Positions 17,839 through 44,878 of a stretch of 64,000 bases of DNA are shown piece by piece. Positions within the stretch are counted from its first letter, which is position 1; each line of letters opens with the position of its first letter. This DNA is from Branchiostoma floridae (Eukaryota; Chordata; Leptocardii; Amphioxiformes; Branchiostomatidae), in NCBI RefSeq assembly GCF_000003815.2, contig NC_049993.1, forward strand, positions 11,038,623 through 11,102,622. The letters are read 5' to 3'. Below the pieces are notes generated by a model, which was not told the origin of the DNA, ran no database searches, and was given only the letters and a program-made list of their open reading frames with translations. Made by a program: the position numbers and the translations under genes.

Positions 17839-19342
17839 TATGCTCTGTGCCTATTCATAAAGCGCAAATACAAACAACCTCGTTGAAACAACTCCGTCAA
17901 AGCAACGACCTGCTTCCTAAATTGATTACTGAAAGTAGCGCGTAAACGGAGGTCACTGCGATTTAAGACTAACGACCAGAGCAAGGCGCGGATATATCCT
18001 CACAAGTAGCAGCTTTGACTGTTTAACTGCCCGTTTGCGATCACAGAAAAGCCACTAACCCTGCTTTCAACCACTGTAAATACCGTTGTGGGACTCGGAA
18101 GCAATAAATGAAAGAACATGTGAAGATAAATGAAGAAATTCTAGATTTCGGATTGCTGGAGATGCCGTATATTTCTTCTTATTTGTGTTTGCGGATGTGG
18201 AAGATGTGCATATCAATAACAGTGTTAGAATCTGTTTCATGTGGTTTTGATATCTAGCGTGTCGACAAGGTGCAATCTAAACATTTATCATCATCAAACA
18301 CCGGTTGGAGCAAGGGTTAGCAACTTAATGGATGAGATTATTTGTAAAAGCAGAAATCGCGTTTTCAAAGCGATCCGATACAGAAGAGTCAAAAGCAGAC
18401 GTTTTATTACCGGCGATGCGGAGATATAAACAACAAACGATGTTAGACCGGCCACATTAGTTTCAACAGCCGCACTTGAGCAGCGTTATCGCCGCTTGGC
18501 ATGGGGCGGTTCGATTTGTGACTGGCGCCGTCTTTTCTGTCTCAGTAACGTTTCCAAATAACTTCTTTCCTCGGGCTACGAGAAAAAGGCTTACTGGATA
18601 ACTTGGACCGGTCTCGTGCCGAGATAAAGGCGTGAGGAAACAATAACTCTTTATTACAACGGCTAAGTCATGCAGCCGCCGACGATAGTCATTCAACTTT
18701 CTTTACACAAACCTACGAGGTTTTTACGAGCTAATCTAAGCCCATACTGAATGCACACGAACTTTTAGTAGGGGTGGTTTAGCGCTGTTTATCACAAGTG
18801 ATAAACATTGTCAATGAGGTAAAAGAGAAGAACGTCTTTTCTGAGGTTCGTGTCGCTATTCCTAAAAGTCAAAGTAAGATATCTTCCTAATCAGATGCGT
18901 CAGTAGTGATTGTCAAACATAAGACGGGAGTTCGCAAAACGACAACCCTTAAGAAAAAACGGTTAGGTTCTTGTTAAGCAGGCGTGTGTAACGGTAACAC
19001 GGGATTTCACGAAACGAGACCGGCGAAAATCTTACCGTCGATTTTACCCGAAACAGCATAGACCTCAAATTCTAGTACTCTCTCTGTTGTACCGAAAGAT
19101 GTTCAGAGGGACATTAAAGGGCACTGTGTTATGTTTCTTTCCACTTTCCGTGTATGCGTGTCTTTTTTGTGGATTGCGTTGACTGTCATTACATTAGTTT
19201 TATAAGAAACGCTGCTCAATGATTAGCATTTCTGCCTGTACCTAGAGCATTATTGTGACGCATACTTGAATTTTAAATCCAAAAAAAGACTTAAAACATT
19301 AAATCTAGTGTACGAATAATGTAAAAATGGCATTTACTTACT

Positions 19343-33902: not shown

Positions 33903-34079
33903 TCAAGGGTCTTGATCCTGACAGTCAGTCCAGTCAGTTGAAGATGACACCTGCGGTGGTTGTGCGGGGGAGTGGTGGTAAAAGTCGGGGCCCCAGGTGA
34001 CGTTACCATAGCGACTTCGTAGTTCTGTCTGAAGTTGCTCTGCATGTTCTTTGTCACGTGTCTCCACCACACACTTTAC
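33903..34079 (-). CDS. Dehydratase alternative last exon D
   Basis: The acceptor TTTTTTTTCAACAG is strong and the exon starts in phase 0. It encodes 58 residues: [17 protein letters not shown]...RYGNVTWGP, then a 25-residue tail (HHSPAQPPQ...DCQDQDP) and TGA at 33905-33903. The first 31 residues align without gaps to the other three last exons. The tail is unique and Ser/Asp/Gln-rich. It is the most distal variant and has a good AATAAA 1.4 kb downstream. Confidence 0.85.
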   Translation of the reverse strand, partial: VKCVVETRDKEHAEQLQTELRSRYGNVTWGPDFYHHSPAQPPQVSSSTDWTDCQDQDP

Positions 34080-37000
34080 CTGTTGAAAAAAAAGCTGTTT
34101 GTTAGAGAAGTACAAAAAATTGGTGAAGCGGAAGAGGGTTCGTAGGGCATGTGGCTTATAATTTGACATCTTAAAGTTAGTCACATCAAATTGTTCTCGC
34201 TTCACTGGCTATACCATGTTTCTACCCTGCCTATGATTACTAGACTTGTAGCATAGGCTCTCATTGTGCATTGCTACCCTCCCAAATACCTAAATGAGTA
34301 ATTATATATTTTTAGCAATCTTGTCTAGATCTTTCCAAGTGTTGATTAGTCTTGACTAGTCAGGATCATTAGCAACTGAAACTAAATAGTCCTTAAATAT
34401 CTCCTCACTTATAATACATATAGCAGCTATGTGAGACAATTTGTCTCTCTCCTTTCACCTAGGTTTTTTAACCTATAGAGGATGATGAATGAAGCATGCA
34501 CTGATTGGATGTCTGGACCACCTAACCATAAAAGCTGCAATGATTGGCTGACGACTGAATCACCTAACCCTAGTAATAGCTTCAATGATTGGCTGACTGA
34601 ATCACCTTATCCTAGTAAAAGCTTCAATGATTGGCTGACTGAATCACCTAACCCTAAAAGCTTCAGTGATTGGTTATCTGGATCCCCTAGTGCTGATGAG
34701 GGCTGCAATGATTGGCTGACTGGATCACCTAGCCCTAAAAGCTTCGATGATTTGTTATCTGGATCCCCTAGTGCTGATGAGGGCTGCAATGATTGGCTGA
34801 CTGGATCACCTGACACTGATAGAAACCCCTGTTGGTTATCTATTCACTGTAACTTGTAAAGGCTAATCTCCAAGCAGATCTTACAATGGCATAAAATAGT
34901 ACCAAACTGGCCAAGGAGTGTAATCAGCCAAGAGGTGTACATTTGCCATGTAAAATCTGCCCCCAGTCGGCTAGAACAAAGGCTATTAACATCCAATTGT
35001 TTCCCATTCAAACTGTGTTTGCAGAGTAGGTGCTAATTGCCCTCCTTCCTGTTTGGTGCTAACTTTCAACTGGGACATGTGCTGGCCAAAGACTTTGTCT
35101 CAGTGTAAGTTGCTCGTAAAATAATTAGCACATGGCAACAGGGAGGGGCAGCAGCACCATCGTTGAATAGAAATGCTCCTCCCTGTTTCAGTGCAGGCAG
35201 ATCCCCGGTAGCCAAACACACTCCTAACCCGGCTTCACTCCTCTGCCAGCTTTTGCTACCATAGGATCTGCTTGGAGATTAGTAAAGGCATCATATGCCT
35301 TTCTGAGAAGTCCATCTATGTTTTCTGAGTGATGACTGGTCTTGCATACTGCTGAATTTCCTAAGGGATAATGAGATTCAAAATCTGCCTACTTTACTTC
35401 TGTCTGCATGCAGCACACAACCTGTGAAGGAGAATACCCATACCCAATATTCTGCAATACTGCTGCTTAACGAAAGGTGGCGCTGTGGGGTCCCCAGTCC
35501 ACACGCTGGTATCTATTCATCAGTGTTGTCCTCAGTTCCTCGGCGTGATCAAAGTCTCGTGTCTCCACAATGCACTTGACCTAGACAGCGGGTGTAATCA
35601 TTGTTTATAGCAAAGTTAGTCCATAGCAGCAGTTAACCATACTTTTTGGGACCTGATGGAAGAGAAGTTGGATCTAGCAGATGCTGAATTCCTTCTAAAA
35701 CTTACAAACAGTTCTGTTAAACCATGCAGTAGTTTACCATTACAGTCAAACCTGTCTACAGTTTTGTACTCAAGGGATAACAGTAGACAGATGTCCACTA
35801 TAGACAGGAGTTAACTACACTGTATAGACCACAACAATGTTGCCACAATGGCCATGTAGTCCCAAAATACAGTAGTGGAGGTTTATATCATTGATCATCC
35901 CTTTGATGTATATACATGTACACTGCAATGAATCAATACACAAGGAACATTCAATTCTTATCACATAGCTCATGGTAAGAAGCAAAATTAAATATGTTTT
36001 GAATCCCCTAAGCTTTCTCTTATGATACATGATGTAACACAGAGGTTCAAAGGTCATAATACATGTAATCTGTAAATATTAAACATTGTAAGAGGAGGTC
36101 AAGTGCTATTTTTGAAGCAGGTGGTTATAAGAAGTTTTGAAGTGAAAAACAAGAAAAGACCAGTAAAGACAGCGCATGTTTGGAAAACCCAAGACATCAA
36201 GATCAGAACCTTTGGAATCTTGGTCAAAAGCTTTATTGCTGATTTTGTAGATGCCAGCACACTATACAGATAGCACCAAGCAATGGTGTTGTACAAAGCA
36301 TATATCTTCTGAAGTTTGCACTTTTAGTACATTTCTTTCTGCTTCTATAAAACTTTTTTCCTCACTAGAATTACGATATTTGCCATAGTTGGTTTCATTG
36401 TTGTGCAATAGTTCATTTTCTATATTGACATCATCTTATATACTCTTACCATTGATAGGACCTCCTAGATACACAAGCTTTGGAATGTTGTGCACTCTGT
36501 TGATAATAAATATCATCTGCCACATGTCAAGAGAACTCCAAGACAAGATCTACCTGGCTGAAAAAGAGACAGAGTGTCTCTCAAAAGTAATCTCCAACCA
36601 AATCCACGGTGCGTAATGTATAGTATCAAACTTCCCGTACCTGTTTGACTCTATTAGCCGGCTACACTCCTTGGCCAACTTTGATACTATCTTATGGCAC
36701 CGTAGGATCTGCTTGGAGATTATCTCAAAAGCTCCCCAAGTAGCAAGCTTTGTTGTGTAAAATTGTTTATATTTTGCCAATAGCACTCTGTTGACTTCCA
36801 GTTCTATCATTAAGATATATTCATTGCTTCCACATCTTCTTCCATAGTGGTAGCATTAAGAGTGGGAAATTCATTGTCTACACCACGAGGTATATTTACA
36901 TTAGAGTACGTGGAGTTATTTTACTTTTTTGAAAGTGTCTAATTGTATTGGATGAGACATAGGGAGTAGACCACTCCTAAAGCCAAAAGACATCTCCTGC

Positions 37001-40000
37001 ACCAGTCAACTATGGCAAGGTCATATTCATTGTATACCTGTCAAATGATCACAAATTTTGGCCATTCTTGAACTAGTCGTGCATGTATCAAACAAACTTA
37101 AGCTGTCTTTTTCCGGAAATGCAGGCAGTTGATTTGGTCACATCTTCTTTTAAAATCCTTGGGCAAATGTACATGACCATGCCTCTACCAAGGAATGACT
37201 GGATGTGAAAGATGTTGGCTCGCATGAGGGATTTCTAGTCCACCCCATATGTCTATAGAACTATATAGGATTGCTAAACTCAGCAGTTCCCAAAGCTTAG
37301 GATTTTTTCATGAGTTTTTTGTCCAATGTTCCTCTGAAAAAGACATCCCCTGAAGCCTGCAGGTCCTGTAACAGAGGGCCTGGAGACGACACGTGCTGTA
37401 TGAGCATCTCAGCCATCGTGTTCTGGCCCCAGATGACACGGCTGTATTTCTGCTCCAGGGCCTGTTTCAGTTCCATGGCATGGTCCCAGTCACGCGTCTC
37501 CACCACAACCTTGGCCTGAGGCAAGGTGCATGATGGGGAGGGCCAGGTGCATGGTGGGAAGGAAGGGTGACGGAATGGACCAACCATGACAGACAAACCA
37601 ATGACGGAAGGGCCGTTTGCATGATGGGAAAGGTATGATACCTCAAGCCAATTGCAAGAGCAAGCATATGATGAAAGAACATAAACCATTTGTAAAATGT
37701 GTGATTGAAGTAATTTAAAAGCAGAAAGTAAAATGGGTTGCACATACATGAAGAATATGGTTGAAAAGGGTTTAAAGGGATGGAAAAAAAGAACCACCTG
37801 TTAGTAAGTATGGCAGTATTGAATGAAAGAAATAATGATAGACATGCAAACATATATGGCTATCTTTTCTTTACAGAATTACTCTGTGATTGTATCCATA
37901 TACGAAAGCTGTCCAAGTTTCAGTTTACGTCAGCAGGGAGAGAGACAATGCTTGAGAACTGCATCGAAATACATGACTGTTTTATCATACTACTAGGCTG
38001 TAGGCCTCGGCGTGTTTCTACTGTATACTGGCTTTCTGTGGGCTGATACTGATATCATTTGATGATTGGCAAAAGCGGGTGCTAGGTGGGTGCTGAAGCT
38101 AATCCGTGAGTTCCAATCAGCGAGTTCCAAGAACTGCTCTGGTGGGGAAGAAAAATTTACTGTTGGGTCCATGGAGCTGGGGCATGGGTTGTATCGTACT
38201 ATATGTATTGCAAAAGTTAGGTGTGACAGGTCCTTCGGTGTAATATAAGCTGCTGTGTTACGCCGAAGGACAGTTATACCTGCTACATAGATACAGATAC
38301 TCATTCAATTGTCTTACATGTAGTTGATCTGAAGTTCAAGCATACAGTCAGAGACAAAGGAAGTCAAGAAAAACAAGGAACACAATTATTAGTTTTAATT
38401 CTCTAGGTACAGGAGTGAGGGAACTTTAACTTTAAGTTTAAGTGAAGGTGGCAGGATTTGTGTCCATTTTGCCTATCAAACAAAGACTGTAGCCAAAAAT
38501 ATGACTATGGCAAAAATATTGATGATTCGTAATAGATCAGATAAATGATTCTCCCAACTTTTTGCAGCCACAGTTCAGCACCTCCCCTTCAACAAAAAAC
38601 TATGATCTTAAATGCACCTTAGGATGAAATAAAACAGCAAAATAACTTGTACCATACTTGTAGCTACAGTTGGGCCTTGGGATAAGTACCTGATTTCTCA
38701 ACAACTGTTATAACAAAAATGTCTATATTAACCCTACAATTATCAATCCCACCAAAAACATGGGCTCACTAAAACAATCCTATTCATAACTGAAGTTGTA
38801 ACTTATGCAAACCACAAACACCCGCAGTAATTTCAACCTTATTCAGTTAAGGAATTATGTTCTTTTTGGTCTCTACTGTCACTTTGTATGTCTCTGTAAT
38901 GTTTAAATATGGATGTGTAGACCACAGAATGAATAGCCTCTTATGAGGCGAATTGTGGATATAAATAAACTCAAACTCAAATCTTATTCAGTATAGTATA
39001 TCATACACATCTTTGTCTATTTCCCCTATGGCCCCATGAGGCTATGTGGGCCCCAGTACACATGCTCGTATTTCTCTTCCAGAGCTCTGCGCAGCTCGTC
39101 TGCGTGTTCGTGACCTCGTGTCTCCACGATACACTTGGTCTGGACGGGCCACAGCAGGGGATGATGGGACAGGTTAGCATGGGCCACAGCAGGGGATGAT
39201 GGGAAGGGTTAACAACGTGACACAGAGGATAGCAGGACATAGACACAACAACACAAGAGAGAGAGGAAACACAAGGAGTGAACTTCCATACTCAGGGAAA
39301 TCAAAAAGGACAAAAGAACATCTTTTATCTATGATAAAAGTGCCAAGCTAACCCCTGGTACACATGTGGACATTGCAATGCATTGGGAATAGTTGGTATG
39401 CATGTACTACTGCCACATATGAATATTGACAGATATGTGTTGAGCACTATAAATCCTGCATTTGGAGTGGCTATGGACGGAGGCAGGGGTTAGGTAATGG
39501 AATCCCTTTTCTCTAATTGTTTGTAAGACTATCTGTGTTATGAGCTATCCTCATAACAGAAAAGTTCTTTTACATTAAATAGAACAATTCTCACCTGTAC
39601 ACTGAAGATGTCAGATGTGAGCCACGCTCGCTCGTGGAAGATGTCTTTAAGGCTGTAAAGAAAGAAAAAATGTATATTAATAGCTTATAATTTACTTCAG
39701 AAGTGCAACTTTCATTCAGTAGTTAAATTCTGCATTATTGTGACAGAGAAAAGTAAATGTAACCTACAGTGATAGGACATTTATTAGCCCTAAGACAAAC
39801 TTTAAGTCATGCTTACCTGACTCCTAACTTTGCGATGATCTTGCACAGCTCGGCAATTCCACCCGGTCTGTCGCTAACGGTTACGACAAATCTACAGAGT
39901 CTTCCGTCCGCCGCCAGCCCCCTCTCGATGCAGCGCCCCAGAACTGTGGTGTCAATGTTGCCTCCACACAGTGGAATCACCACCCTTTTTGTAAAAAACA

Positions 40001-43000
40001 AAAAAATTGATATTCATCAATATAGCCTTTGAAAACTTACACAAACTGAGAAGGTATTTTTGCATGATAATCTTTTAAAGGCATTACAAGTATTTACAAA
40101 AAAATTATAATGCCCCAGAACATAGCATATCTAATTAATTATCAGTCAATGAAATTCAATAATCTCTAACATAAAAACTTATTTCCCAAAGGGAAACATT
40201 TGACTATTACAGTACCTTGCCAATACACAAGGGAGCAATTGAACTATAAGCATTCATAAAACAACAACTCTCATCACAAGTTTGCATACTGCCCCATGCC
40301 TGTAGCCTGTGCAATACATACAAACCAATCAGTTGACAGTAGAATAATATAGCAAATGCACCCCCCCAAAAAGTATTGAATGATTGTAGGGTGAACAATA
40401 TACTGATTCCCATCACATCTTGTGAGGCTGATTCTTACAAACATACGAACCACACAAAGTCCCTACATTTGTGTGGACTTGCATGCTCTATGGTACACAG
40501 TCTCTATTCTTCTAAACCCCTCTTGCTGACCTTTTCCCCTTGAGTTCGGGCAGCAGTCCTGCCAGCACAGCGGCCAGCCCCGTGGCGCCCGCGCCCTCCA
40601 CCACGGCCTTCTCCATCTCCACCAGCCTCAGGATTGCCAGGGCAATAAACTCCTCCCTGTGGAGGGAAACAACAGTTACAGTAGGGCGATAAACTCCTCC
40701 CTACACAGGGAAACAACAGTTACAGTAGGGCAATAAACTCCTCCCTACACAGGGAAACAACAGTTACAGTAGGGCAATAAACTCCTCCCTACACAGGGAA
40801 ACAACAGTCAGAGTATCTGTTTTAGTGTAAACCTGACTTAAAACTTGTGGTGGTGGGCTTGAATAAAGTAGTTCTTGATGTTTGTTATACTTTGTTGGAT
40901 TAACTTTCATTGCATCTATTCTAGGAGGGGAGAGAAGCTTCATAGTGTTACCAGTATTGTCCTGTTACTCCTATCCCCCTTCTGAACATCACCCTTGATC
41001 TAAATAGGGGTAACCCCCTAGAATTTGAAGTCAGTATTGACCTCCTGCTTCCTTTTCTAAAGAGCTAACCTCTCCTTTCCCAGATGGTCAAGAACATGAA
41101 ACCTCACAATGTCAGGAAACATCATGTTTGTCTGAACATTGATAACATGGAAGCTTGAGTGTGGCTTACCCCACTGTGACCATTTGGTCAATGTAGTTTC
41201 TGGCTGTGGCAAAAGCGTTAACCCCGACTGTGGGAACAGCAAGACCTGAAAGACATAGCAGGGCACCATGATGTAAAATACAACTTCCATTTTCACAAGT
41301 TCATCTGGTGTAACATCTGTCATAATGTTTTCCCCCTCCGCCCCTCTTGTACAAGTCATAAAACATGTTAAAAACAAGAGTGGAATAGTTCTACCAGTAT
41401 GATGTGTTTCAAATTGTGAAAGTTTGACAAAAATCTAAAATCCTGTAATTATAAAGAGTTTGTATGCCAGATTCACCATGATGTCTTATTGATGTCTTTT
41501 GCAATTTTTTTCTTTTGCATGTTTATTTTTTTTTGCACGCATGTTTTTTTTTCTTCTATTGTATGTTCATTTATCCCATATCTTTTTTGGCTATATTTAA
41601 GCATGAATCAGTATTGAATCCATCCATGTCCACCCTCACCATCAGCCAGTGTAGACTGTGCTCCTACAGTGACGACCTTCCCAGCCTTCATAGACTCTGT
41701 GAAGCCAGCACATCTCTCCGACTCTACTCCCTATGGATGCAAAGATACATGTAATCATGCATACATACATACATACACTGACACAATGGGCTCATATATC
41801 ATAAGTGATGGAAATATCCTACGAGGAGATCAAAGTTGAGCATGATTCAGGGTTGTCCTTCCTCCTTGCCCTAAATCTTTCCAACTATGTGTACTCTTAA
41901 TTATCAGGTTTGTCTTATAACAAGCCTTGTCAGTAGTGTATACCTGTATGTAAAAGAAATGGTATACCCTTCAAACAACAAAAAGAAACTTACAGCCCTC
42001 AATAGAAATGAACTAGGAGCACAAAAGTTCAACTTAATTCTTATACATCTACTCATATTGAAACAAGTGTACAGTACTTACAATAACTTTAACACTGGGG
42101 TATAGACTCTTGATAGCCAGGGCTGATCCAGCAATCAGACCCCCTCCCCCGATGGGGATGACCACTGCGTCAATGTCGGACACCTGCTCCACGATCTCCA
42201 GCCCCATGGTACCCTGGCCTGCCAGGATGTGGGGGTGATCGTAGCTGGAGAGACATGACAATTTGAGGAGGTGTCATTAAGGGTTATCAGGCTCATGTTG
42301 GCTCTTGTTGCCACCAAGTACTATGGGGGACCCTCCATAGAAAGCTTTGGTCATAGCTTGCAGCCAGGTGTGCAAACTTAAGGCTAAGTGTCACAGGTCA
42401 TTCAGGTTAATGCAAATACATAACCAGGAGAGTGGTCACACCGGCTATACAGATACAGATATAGATGTTATCCACTGTACTGGAAATGCACAAACTTAAA
42501 AGTCATGATATTTCAATCCTCTAACATCATTCACAGACACAATTTCAATGCTGAGGAGAAACCAAATTACATGTGTAAAGCAAATTTTCTTGTTTAGCAA
42601 TGATTGCATAACCTTCTAAGCCAGATACATATCAACGGCTTTGACACCCTGATCCTGGGATGAATTTTACTCCAGCTTCTATAAAAATTTTCAAAAAAAC
42701 AAGATTCCTTACCCGTTGATGTAAACCATCCCTGAGTCCTTTGCAATCTTCAGAGCGTGAGCCCTGGACTGTAAATCAACAACACAAAAAATATCTTCAT
42801 TGAGGAAAGCACTGGCTATGCTAGGTAAAAACAGACGTTTTTCTGCCATTTCCTTTTTCATCCCTGTTTACTTTCTTGTGGAAGTGTTATTTTTTGCAAA
42901 GCCTATAATTATTAGAGAACTATTGCATCATACATGTAGTAACATTTACATCACTCCAAGTATGGTCAATATTGTATTTCAAATCTCAGTGTCAGAACTA

Positions 43001-44869
43001 TAAAGGATGGTGTCAGTACAATGCAAAACTGACCACTCCGATATCTGCTCCCTTCACGATAACGTTCCCGCCGTACTGTCGACACAGGTTGACCTTCATC
43101 AGGGGTGCGATGATGGGCATCACTACGGTAACGGGGATGCCAAGTTGGTTGCCATGGTAAGACAAGGCTAGGGCGTGGTTTCCTGCGGACGCTGCTACAA
43201 CACCTATCTGTTTCTGTTCCTTTGTAAGAGCCATGAGGGTGTACCGTGCCCCTCTTTCTTTGAAGCTGTAAAACAACAAATCGTGTGGTTAAAACATTAT
43301 TCTAAAGAGTAAAGGTACATGTAATCCCATACCCCTTTTGAGACAGTAGGTGTAGTGGGTTCTTTATCCACTGTGCTTAGGACATGATATCAGCAGGAGG
43401 AACCCATCCCTCTCCTCCAACCACCTTTTACCTCCCCAACCAAAGTCAGTTAACCATTTTTATACCTCGGTTCTTGAGGAAAGTCGTGTATATTGCCTAT
43501 CCCAAGGATACAACGTCTAGCCAAGGCTATTATACAATGCTTATACATGTACAAAGAACATTCCAGATCCACATAATCTACTAGGAAAAGTAAAGCTCGT
43601 TCCAAGTCTGAGACAAAATACTGACTGAAATTAGTTGATTAGATATGGCCATGTTAGACTTTGTAATAGACAAGACAGGAAGTCAACATTCCTGAGCAAG
43701 GTTTCCTTCTGTAAAGGGCATCTTATCCATAATTCTTTATAATTTTTTTAAATTGCTTCCAAAATCGTTGCCCGGCCACGCCTACCTTCCTGTCTGCTGT
43801 AGGAACTCCTTTTTGAAGTGCAGGTCGATTCCTGTTAGTGCTGACAGCTGTACTGATTTCTGTAACCATGGAAACAACAAAGTTACAACAACAGTCCACT
43901 TTCTAGCAAAAACTCTTCTGAATCACAAACTTGCAGGTTCAATCCTGGTCTCGGACTGAAATTCAGAGTCAGGACTTTCATTGGTGTCCTGACTCTGAAT
44001 TTCAAGTTTTTTATACAAATAAACAAACTAGTAGTTAATTGTTTGAGTACCTGGGCAATGCAAGTTTAAGTAAACAAAAAAGTTTTTGAAAACATAAAGC
44101 ATACTAGTCTTGCAGGTTGATGAACTCAAAGCTGGTCATTGTTAATCTTTGATTGGGCAAGGTCCATTTTACAGTGACCATACATGGTCATATATAGGTC
44201 AATGAACCCTTTGATCATCATTTTATCCTTTAGTAGAAAACCATGAGTACACAATGGCTTCGAATTTTTCTGTATTTTTCCAAATCAGTATACTGTCATC
44301 TTAGTTAAAGTACTCTGTTGACAGTCTCAATACTTCAATGGTAACTAAAAATAAAATATGGTATGATCACAATTTCACATTATGGATTTCACATTCACAG
44401 AAACTAACACTGGGACGAGCAAAAGAGAGATAGTGATGAAAGCAATGTCTAGACCAGCTGGCGGAGGGTATCTATAGTAGAGCAGTAGAGGAAACTGACT
44501 AGTATTCAGTGAGAAAGAGCATGAAATCACATCCTTGAAGTCTCCATCCCAAACTCCTCTCAGTCTCTAGCTTCTTGCTTGGTTACATCAATGTTCTGAC
44601 ATCACATCATATACCATTGCCACAGACAGGAATTTACATCTATACATCCCGGTATATGATTATAAACTTACAGTGCACGGCGTTCTCTCAATGCCGTTTC
44701 TGATTTTGTACGCAGCTGCGCTGACATCCTGGAACTTCACAACGATGGGATTGTCGGGGTCGCACATGGGGTCGAACAAGTCCTCCTCTGCAGGGATGCT
44801 GTTACTCTTCTCCAGGTGACCGTTCACCATCACACCTTCAGATGGGGAGGTGGCTTCTTCCCCAGGCAT
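33903..44869 (-). CDS. PLP-dependent serine/threonine dehydratase with ACT domain (whole gene)
   Basis: This enzyme should convert L-threonine and L-serine to 2-oxoacids plus ammonia (threonine ammonia-lyase, fold-type II PLP family). Ten constant exons encode 414 residues with all splice phases consistent: 44672-44869, 43786-43859, 43034-43265, 42713-42768, 42082-42244, 41640-41730, 41170-41245, 40531-40656, 39817-39984 and 39595-39652. One of four last exons follows, for totals of 451, 486, 451 or 472 residues. Seen motifs: PLP lysine K93 in GSFKERGA, N120 in SAGNH, tetraglycine phosphate loop 219-222 (IPIGGGGL), TLADG near 270, EGAGATG, and C345 in CGGNID. A118 sits where serine racemase has its second catalytic serine, so a dehydratase is favoured over a racemase. 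An ACT domain ([23 protein letters not shown] onward) follows, as in bacterial ThrD-II enzymes. There is no targeting peptide, so it is probably cytosolic. Confidence 0.92.
34482..34826. repeat. Minisatellite with 39/42/45-bp units, open on both strands
   Basis: About eight units of the type AGCTTCAATGATTGGCTGAC-TGAATCACCTAACCCTAAA lie in the intron between last exons C and D. All unit lengths are multiples of three. A higher-order 81-bp unit is duplicated at 34659-34739 and 34740-34820. The plus strand is open from ATG 34482 to 34859 (125 codons) with repeated [FC]-[NSD]-D-[WL]-L-[TS]-x-SP motifs, and the minus strand is open too. I treat it as a repeat rather than a gene. Most units carry ATTGG (an inverted CCAAT box). 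Confidence 0.85.
34864..35281. mobile_element. MITE family A, copy 1, with 8-bp target duplication
   Basis: The terminal inverted repeats begin TAATCTCCAAGCAGATC at both ends. GTAAAGGC flanks the element directly at 34856-34863 and 35282-35289. The length is 418 bp with no coding capacity. An 8-bp target duplication suggests the hAT group, although the second copy shows 9 bp. It lies between last exons C and D of the dehydratase gene. Confidence 0.9.
35467..35580 (-). CDS. Dehydratase alternative last exon C
   Basis: The acceptor is CCGCTGTCTAG and the start phase is 0. It encodes 37 residues, [17 protein letters not shown]...[15 protein letters not shown], with TAA at 35469-35467. It has the same length as exon A and the same WGPHS ending of the fold, with a different C-terminus. 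No clear AATAAA was found before MITE A, so the 3' end is unknown. Confidence 0.85.
   Translation of the reverse strand, partial: VKCIVETRDFDHAEELRTTLMNRYQRVDWGPHSATFR
36232..36237 (-). terminator. Candidate polyadenylation signal for last exon B
   Basis: AATAAA on the minus strand is followed by GU-rich sequence (GGTTCTGATCTTGATGTC). It lies about 1.06 kb after the exon B stop. MITE A copy 2 would lie inside this 3' UTR. Confidence 0.4.
36588..36722. mobile_element. MITE family A, copy 2, with 9-bp target duplication
   Basis: The ends are TAATCTCCAACCAAATCC and the complement of TAATCTCCAAGCAGATCC. The element is flanked by TCTCAAAAG at 36579-36587 and 36723-36731. The interior shares CTACACTCCTTGGCCAACTT with copy 1 in inverted sense. 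It is a deleted, 135-bp derivative. Confidence 0.9.
37297..37515 (-). CDS. Dehydratase alternative last exon B
   Basis: The acceptor is CACCTTGCCTCAG and the start phase is 0. It encodes 72 residues: [18 protein letters not shown]...KYSRVIWGQ, then a long tail (from NTMAEML to KKLMKKS) with TAA at 37299-37297. The tail is about 40 residues longer than those of A and C, mixed hydrophobic at first and then basic. Gln replaces Pro after WG. Confidence 0.85.
   Translation of the reverse strand, partial: AKVVVETRDWDHAMELKQALEQKYSRVIWGQNTMAEMLIQHVSSPGPLLQDLQASGDVFFRGTLDKKLMKKS
38206..38300. repeat. Dispersed repeat with internal palindrome (also 42385-42470, 45600-45660)
   Basis: GTCCTTCGGTGTAA pairs with GTTACGCCGAAGGAC inside the unit, and GATACAGATA ends it. 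Related but diverged segments with CTGTGTTACGCC-, GGTTATAC- and CAGATACAGA-type motifs occur near 42.4 kb and 45.6 kb. This is probably a small MITE family. Confidence 0.5.
38394..38399 (-). terminator. Weak candidate polyadenylation signal for last exon A
   Basis: ATTAAA on the minus strand is followed by TGTTCCTTGTTTTTCTTGAC. It lies about 0.6 kb after the exon A stop. Another variant (AATAAG) near 38990 is closer but weaker. Confidence 0.25.
38880..38985 (+). mobile_element. Probable 3' tail of a non-LTR retrotransposon
   Basis: A plus-strand segment ending in GGATATAAATAAACTCAAAC followed by TCAAA has the look of a truncated LINE 3' end with a short tandem tail. It abuts the last exon A 3' UTR. 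No coding part remains. Confidence 0.3.
39026..39139 (-). CDS. Dehydratase alternative last exon A (most proximal)
   Basis: The acceptor is GTGGCCCGTCCAG and the start phase is 0. It encodes 37 residues, [18 protein letters not shown]...[15 protein letters not shown], with TAG at 39028-39026. It is closest to exon 11 (455-bp intron) and would be the default choice by position. Gly replaces the Asp found after VETR in the other three variants. Confidence 0.87.
   Translation of the reverse strand, partial: TKCIVETRGHEHADELRRALEEKYEHVYWGPHSLMGP
39595..39652 (-). CDS. Dehydratase exon 11 (middle of ACT domain)
   Basis: It encodes [20 protein letters not shown] and completes the split Ser395. 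The acceptor is CTTTCTTTACAG and the donor GTGAGA, in phase 0. It ends within the ACT strand that continues as [VTA]K-x-[VI]VETR in each alternative last exon, so it is the shared splice donor for all four. Confidence 0.93.
39817..39984 (-). CDS. Dehydratase exon 10 (end of catalytic core, start of ACT domain)
   Basis: It encodes [13 protein letters not shown], where C345 should contact the PLP ring nitrogen. It then encodes [16 protein letters not shown] and [10 protein letters not shown], the first strand and helix of an ACT domain. The donor is GTAAGC. The acceptor (TTTTTTACAAAAAG) has purines between the tract and AG and may be weak. Confidence 0.93.
40531..40656 (-). CDS. Dehydratase exon 9
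   Basis: It encodes [41 protein letters not shown], including the conserved EGAGA helix cap. It is strikingly GC-rich compared with its introns. The acceptor CCCTCCACAG is the innermost copy of a tandem array of similar acceptors. The donor is a GTCAGC site. Confidence 0.93.
40641..40812. repeat. 44-bp tandem repeat duplicating the exon 9 acceptor
   Basis: Nearly four copies with an exact 44-bp period each contain CAATAAACTCCTCCCT and GGGAAACAACAGTTACAG. The innermost copy overlaps the first 16 bases of exon 9 and its acceptor. The three outer copies present CCCTGTGTAG|GGAGGAG decoy acceptors, with junctions at about 40700, 40744 and 40788. The decoy frame reads EEFIALL and then TAA. Confidence 0.95.
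41170..41245 (-). CDS. Dehydratase exon 8
   Basis: It encodes [20 protein letters not shown] plus MVTV. The acceptor is TATGTCTTTCAG and the donor GTAAGC. It begins with the two bases that complete the Gly of TLADG. Confidence 0.92.
41640..41730 (-). CDS. Dehydratase exon 7
   Basis: It encodes [20 protein letters not shown], then [10 protein letters not shown], matching the GVQSEN...GTLADG region of threonine dehydratases. The acceptor ends ATCCATAG and the donor is GTGAGG. Confidence 0.92.
42082..42244 (-). CDS. Dehydratase exon 6 (PLP phosphate loop)
   Basis: It encodes [20 protein letters not shown], then [20 protein letters not shown]. The GGGG at residues 219-222 binds the PLP phosphate in this family. 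The donor is GTAAGT and the acceptor TGTCTCTCCAG. Confidence 0.95.
42713..42768 (-). CDS. Dehydratase exon 5
   Basis: It encodes [18 protein letters not shown], with acceptor GTTGATTTACAG and donor GTAAGG. It is only 56 bp but phase-consistent on both sides. Confidence 0.92.
43034..43265 (-). CDS. Dehydratase exon 4 (PLP lysine)
   Basis: It begins by completing Ser91 of [13 protein letters not shown]93 forms the PLP Schiff base. It continues through [17 protein letters not shown] and [13 protein letters not shown]. Ala118 follows Ser117, where serine racemases have a second serine. The donor is GTCAGT, a non-optimal but valid site. Confidence 0.95.
43434..43530 (-). mobile_element. SINE body fragment
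   Basis: On the minus strand, ATCCTTGGGATAGGCAATAT and CGACTTTCCTCA match the body of the SINE at 26275-26460. The tRNA-like head is missing. Confidence 0.5.
43786..43859 (-). CDS. Dehydratase exon 3
   Basis: It encodes [20 protein letters not shown] plus QQTG. The acceptor is CATGGTTACAG and the donor GTAGGC. It leads into the PLP-lysine motif across a phase-2 junction. Confidence 0.92.
44672..44869 (-). CDS. Dehydratase exon 2 (common start codon)
   Basis: ATG at 44869 (context AATCTAAAGATGC) opens 66 codons, [13 protein letters not shown]... to NGIERTPCT, with donor GTAAGT. The first 40 residues are acidic and disordered; the catalytic fold starts near [16 protein letters not shown]. The exon itself starts at 44878 after acceptor GCCTGTTAACAG, so at least one upstream exon exists. 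The nine bases before ATG are open in the frame (NLK), which allows an upstream coding exon to join. Confidence 0.93.
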
Positions 44870-44878
44870 CTTTAGATT

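Follow-up and report, generated by a model that had tools for sequence, protein, structure and literature searches.

Four tandem terminal exons may exchange half of the ACT domain in a lancelet threonine ammonia-lyase

The gene considered here, a predicted threonine ammonia-lyase gene, occupies the minus strand from 44869 to 33903 of a 64,000-nucleotide stretch of the lancelet Branchiostoma floridae (the window; C15:11038623-11102622, from a genome of 513 Mb in 431 contigs), and it is followed in frame not by one candidate last exon but by four. Exon edges and reading frame, rebuilt by script, give 10 coding exons that join in frame into 1242 nt or 414 codons, with GT donors at all 10 and AG acceptors at the nine inner ones. 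Coding exon 1 (44672..44869) has its ATG at 44869; the exon itself may begin at 44878, after an acceptor-like AG, and a non-coding exon possibly lies further upstream. Coding exon 2 (43786..43859) is followed by coding exon 3 (43034..43265), whose start completes SFKERGA, which we take to be the pyridoxal phosphate (PLP)-lysine motif, by coding exon 4 (42713..42768) and by coding exon 5 (42082..42244), which contains GGGGL, presumably the glycine-rich PLP loop. Coding exons 6 (41640..41730), 7 (41170..41245) and 8 (40531..40656) lead to coding exon 9 (39817..39984), which, by domain search and comparison with a bacterial model, encodes the end of the PALP domain together with strand 1 and helix 1 of an ACT domain. 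Coding exon 10 (39595..39652) adds ACT strand 2 and the start of strand 3, and terminates at 39595 (CAG/gtgaga) after ...SDIFSVQ, in phase 0.

Four alternative last exons lie downstream on the same strand, namely A (39026..39139; 37 residues, stop TAG), B (37297..37515; 72 residues), C (35467..35580; 37 residues, stop TAA) and D (33903..34079; 58 residues). All four were delineated by the reconstruction and by profiles, joined by a genome search with the peptide for A, B and D and by an acceptor scan for C. Each starts in phase 0 directly after an AG, opens with [TAV]K-x-[IV]VETR and carries its own stop, so that the predicted isoforms ending in A, B, C and D comprise 451, 486, 451 and 472 residues, respectively. 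The first-pass annotation of this DNA, made from the letters alone, had placed the end of an eleventh exon in phase 0 in the middle of an ACT domain; the reconstruction, the bacterial relatives and the structure model described below agree on this junction, which in our count belongs to the tenth coding exon. The four downstream exons with stops of their own were likewise borne out, with the originally proposed motif fitting all of them, while the tails past the WG, first put at about 3 to 40 residues, actually measure 7, 42, 7 and 28 residues in A to D. Homologous exons in the same phase, each with an acceptor and a stop, are the anatomy of tandem terminal exons, and because each copy has its own stop, 'alternative terminal exons' is a more exact term than the initial 'mutually exclusive last exons'.

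As judged from profile matches, the gene product is a single-ACT threonine ammonia-lyase. Isoform C, the only one scanned against TIGR01127 (threonine ammonia-lyase with one C-terminal ACT domain), reaches 383.7 bits where the cut-off is 378.75, and it matches PALP with an expect value (E) of 2.9e-82; the sister model NF005600 gives a higher score, 407.1 bits, but one below its own cut-off of 496. PF00585 had no match in the genome at E up to 0.001, and a PDB sequence search with the ACT part of isoform D alone returned no hit at E up to 1.

The position of the splice junction within the ACT fold was examined in models of L012, a bacterial relative 57% identical to the lancelet enzyme, rather than of the spliced lancelet protein itself. 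Its AlphaFold model, built from 13 sequences, has a mean predicted local distance difference test (pLDDT) score of 91.8, with only 64 in block 361-370 and 80 in block 371-380. In this model the junction maps after residue 376, inside the strand spanning 374-382. ACT strands 1 and 2, helix 1 and the start of strand 3 would hence be shared by all isoforms, and the alternative exons would contribute the remainder of strand 3, helix 2 (386-398 in L012) and strand 4. Modelled in isolation (mean pLDDT 82.6), the L012 domain adopts the beta-alpha-beta-beta-alpha-beta order of the ACT fold. Comparison with solved structures gave 67 matches with E up to 0.001; among the best 50 of these 67 that were examined, the matches listed include the ACT domains of formyltetrahydrofolate deformylase, prephenate dehydrogenase, aspartate kinase and phosphoglycerate dehydrogenase, as well as some chains of PII-like SbtB.

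Bacterial proteins show what an uninterrupted version of this region looks like. Six of 50 pattern-matched stretches encode bacterial relatives with 47-58% identity in the best segment, and all six cross the position of the junction without a break, four of them with VETR and two with variants of it; seven further, more distant bacterial proteins cross it too, with looser likeness. These 13 proteins form the alignment used here, drawn from 19 bacterial loci: of the 13 loci added to the first six (L029 to L040 and L044), seven gave usable proteins, and L031, L035, L037, L038, L039 and L044 were left out. Phycisphaera-group proteins (L012 to L014) stand at 57-58% identity to the animal enzyme in the best segment. 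A profile built from the six bacterial relatives alone places the four exon frames at ranks 1 to 4 within the window, with whole-frame E of 1.3e-9 for D, 8.3e-9 for C, 1.1e-6 for A and 0.0076 for B, the next frame following at 0.87.

The four exons are clearly homologous to one another. Identity to A over 33 residues is 52% for B, 61% for C and 48% for D, with 13 columns invariant, and any two copies share 15 to 19 of 30 residues. Leave-one-out profiles recovered each held-out exon (A 53.7, B 45.0, C 63.1 and D 47.7 bits), compared with 11.1 to 15.6 bits for the best non-exon frames. The four-exon profile gives 73 to 82 bits for A to D and at best 14.2 bits elsewhere in the window, this being a 12-residue match on the plus strand near 18430 (E 0.0047), followed by another at 0.042. 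Genome-wide, residues 360-413 of the full-protein query match this gene only, with other loci matching just the PALP part, and peptides A, B and D each match four places, all within this gene. In these searches, whose counts are lower bounds and in which exon C was included only as part of isoform C, no further copy of the last exon was found. Similarity between the flanks of the copies is limited to a match of 24 bp that lies downstream of B and C. Stretches resembling aatctccaagcagatcct and its reverse complement recur at about 34860-36740, between exons B and D; they resemble small inverted-repeat elements, to which the 24-bp match may belong. A minisatellite-like array with periods of 42, 81 and 123 bp lies at 34502-34821, between C and D.

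Sequence comparison among the copies points to selection on the encoded peptide. Pairwise estimates by the Nei-Gojobori method over 30 codons place nonsynonymous divergence (dN, 0.33-0.48) below synonymous divergence (dS, 0.72-2.26) in all six exon pairs, so that the Ka/Ks comparison proposed with the first-pass annotation yields ratios of 0.16-0.45 throughout. Synonymous sites have thus strongly diverged, yet 13 of 30 peptide columns are invariant. In a codon model, a ratio (omega) of 1 on all branches was rejected on each of three trees (2dlnL 14.6, 21.9 and 16.0), with branch lengths at their bound. We also simulated neutral drift, with 19,998 runs per exon, each started from another copy; taking a living copy as the start is a simplification. 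At t = 0.36, half of the lowest pairwise dS, drift reached the observed similarity score in a fraction of 0.00005 (A), 0.0007 (B), 0 (C) and 0.0002 (D) of runs, and at t = 0.6 or 1.0 in no run. Taken together, the high dS, the conserved peptide columns and drift probabilities of at most 7e-4 suggest that all four exons have probably served as protein.

Signals for splicing were scored with a generic matrix and ranked among 773 AGs. The acceptors of A, B, C and D score 1.6, 2.7, 0.4 and 4.4 (percentiles 92.8, 95.0, 88.1 and 97.8), compared with 0.6 to 10.7 (88.6 to 99.9) for the nine constitutive acceptors of the gene. As in terminal exons, no donor-like site above 3 occurs in exons A, B and C or within 300 nt past their stops, the local density being 0.44 per 300 nt; exon D has one such site at its first base and another 296 nt after its stop. 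Short tandem repeats directly precede the acceptors of B (37520-37562) and A (39146-39203). Within the body of the gene, a 44-bp unit present 4.0 times (93% matches) at 40639-40815 includes the acceptor of coding exon 8 together with the first codons of that exon; the three upstream copies of the unit have an AG of their own and would read EEFIALL and then a stop, so that splicing to them would yield a truncated enzyme.

We consider it likely that these are four alternative terminal exons in tandem, all of them kept and one joined per transcript, RNA use and exclusivity being the inferred parts of this reading. In such a scenario, the last exon of a single-ACT threonine ammonia-lyase gene would have been duplicated in tandem, long ago, until four copies existed, and all would have been retained. 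The donor of coding exon 10 would be spliced to any one of the four acceptors, with the transcript then closed by 3'-end formation. Four isoforms would result, with one catalytic body and a shared front half of the ACT domain, which each exon would complete with the remainder of strand 3, with helix 2 and with strand 4, and extend by a tail of its own.

Several observations weigh against this interpretation. At a cut-off of 27 bits, Pfam ACT is passed by the domain with D alone (27.1), with 26.9 for A, 25.0 for B and 22.6 for whole isoform C. The exon B stretch taken alone is weak against the bacterial profile (11.3 bits, independent E-value 0.034). Branch lengths in the codon model were saturated, and fixing omega at 1 on a single branch, in a comparison with the single-omega model that is not nested, favours constraint for D alone: the cost is 7.6 to 14.3 there and lies between -0.9 and 1.8 for A, B and C. 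Of the acceptors, all initially described as good, those of A, B and D fall inside the constitutive range; that of C lies just under it, below all nine. The donor scan is blunt, since at least two of the 10 real donors of the gene also score below 3. As for 3'-end formation, the nearest poly(A) hexamer (ATTAAA or AATAAA) past the stop is found after 627 nt in A, 1060 nt in B and 1416 nt in D, and the 1385 nt that follow the stop of C contain none. These hexamers are at chance density, for which 1.2 per 1.5 kb are expected and 34% of stretches have none, and their spacing therefore supports nothing.

The alternative that survives best accepts that all four exons are used and holds that the choice serves the 3' untranslated region (UTR), the tail or the expression level, the ACT halves being functionally equal and retained just so that the domain can fold. 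We regard this as possible, if not the favoured account. It agrees with the placement of invariant positions on strand 3 and on one face of helix 2: H12, A13, L16, L20 and Y24, all within exon columns 10-24, cluster on one face at 0.74, a value equalled by 1.9% of 3003 five-column picks in a test chosen after seeing the alignment, with Y24 just beyond the modelled helix. The tails, moreover, differ most, from 7 to 42 residues, and for known terminal-exon arrays, pip among them, the choice is discussed as one of 3' UTR (PMC9013439). What speaks against functional equality is that the copies have no more than 15 to 19 of 30 residues in common and that helix 2 begins with a different residue in each (H, W, F, K), with a further change at a strand-4 residue (Y, I, D, T). 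These two sites, the other faces of helix 2 and the tails are where the exons vary, and so the ACT fold seems to have been kept and its surface changed. Such a pattern would suit altered contacts, whether with another ACT domain, with the catalytic body or with a partner, and the varied surfaces are as compatible with changed interfaces or partners as with changed ligands.

It is unlikely that use is confined to one or two exons, the rest being undecayed relics of tandem duplication. The low score of acceptor C, the weakness of B against the bacterial profile and the single-branch comparisons, which leave omega = 1 possible for A, B and C, would all suit relics; yet the reading frame, the acceptor AG and the core residues persist in all four exons despite the high dS, drift rarely if ever accounts for the conservation of any of them, and neither the four-exon profile in the window nor the genome searches found a decayed further copy.

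Exclusivity might also be enforced at the RNA level, by one docking site pairing with a selector sequence before each exon, as is known for insect Dscam. We think this very improbable here. The stretch before C pairs with the intron after exon 10 at -38.1 kcal/mol, an energy that none of 20 simple shuffles reaches (minimum -36.2), but it is reached by six of 60 dinucleotide shuffles and by 15 of 60 stretches taken at random from the window, and the pairing before B (reached by 59 of 60 controls) and D (27 of 60) is nothing beyond controls; the candidate was rejected for exons B, C and D in this one genome. Scarcely any credence can be given to the idea that the last exons are remains of tandem whole-gene copies reduced to their ends, which the tandem arrangement and common phase would allow, since between the copies the full-protein search, whose counts are lower bounds, matches last exons and no other exon of the gene.

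If alternative terminal exons are indeed joined to one body, the swap would most likely alter either the response of the ACT domain to amino acids or the assembly of the enzyme, acting through strand 4, the tail and the parts of helix 2 that vary, namely its variable faces and its first residue. The earlier description of one catalytic body with four allosteric modules holds for the single body and its four homologous ends, which look constrained, and fails in that half an ACT domain would be exchanged rather than a whole module. An allosteric switchboard, in which the ends provide four effector responses or assembly states, mixed oligomers widen the range, and cell type or nutrition governs the choice, is conceivable, though we put it forward with considerable doubt. 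Should the four-exon reading be correct, nature would have fitted one enzyme body with four regulatory ends, the division running through the middle of an ACT strand, and comparing them would directly test which ACT residues govern effector response or assembly.

Comparable arrangements are known in part. The bacterial TIGR01127 proteins (ilvA_1Cterm) share the PALP body and the one ACT domain, continuous across the junction in the six relatives, but have a single fixed end, the chain in all 13 aligned proteins stopping either with strand 4 or no more than about 20 residues from it. The initial claim of novelty has to be drawn more narrowly. No alternative ends of a threonine dehydratase were described in the titles and abstract openings among the literature matches listed, nor did those matches include a metabolic enzyme, amino-acid catabolic or other, in which half an ACT domain is exchanged among four terminal exons, most subscription papers lying outside the search. 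Tandem mutually exclusive terminal exons as such, however, are known from Drosophila pip and PGRP-LC (PMC9013439). The likeness lies in homologous terminal exons in tandem, from which one is chosen exclusively in the Drosophila genes; the genes and domains differ, and there the choice concerns the 3' UTR or a 3' variable region and involves competing RNA structures (PMC9013439), of which the lancelet gene gave no sign when its pairing was compared with controls. UGT1A, too, joins tandem variable exons to one shared enzyme part, but these are first exons with promoters of their own, and it is the substrate site that changes (PMC9013439). In PKM, the swap of exons 9 and 10 that yields PKM1 or PKM2 changes an effector site and a subunit interface within a metabolic enzyme (PMC4838608); it involves two internal exons rather than four terminal ones, and its effect is established where that of the lancelet swap is inferred. 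If the present reading is true, tandem terminal-exon arrays would extend from Drosophila pip and PGRP-LC to the amino-acid catabolism of a chordate.

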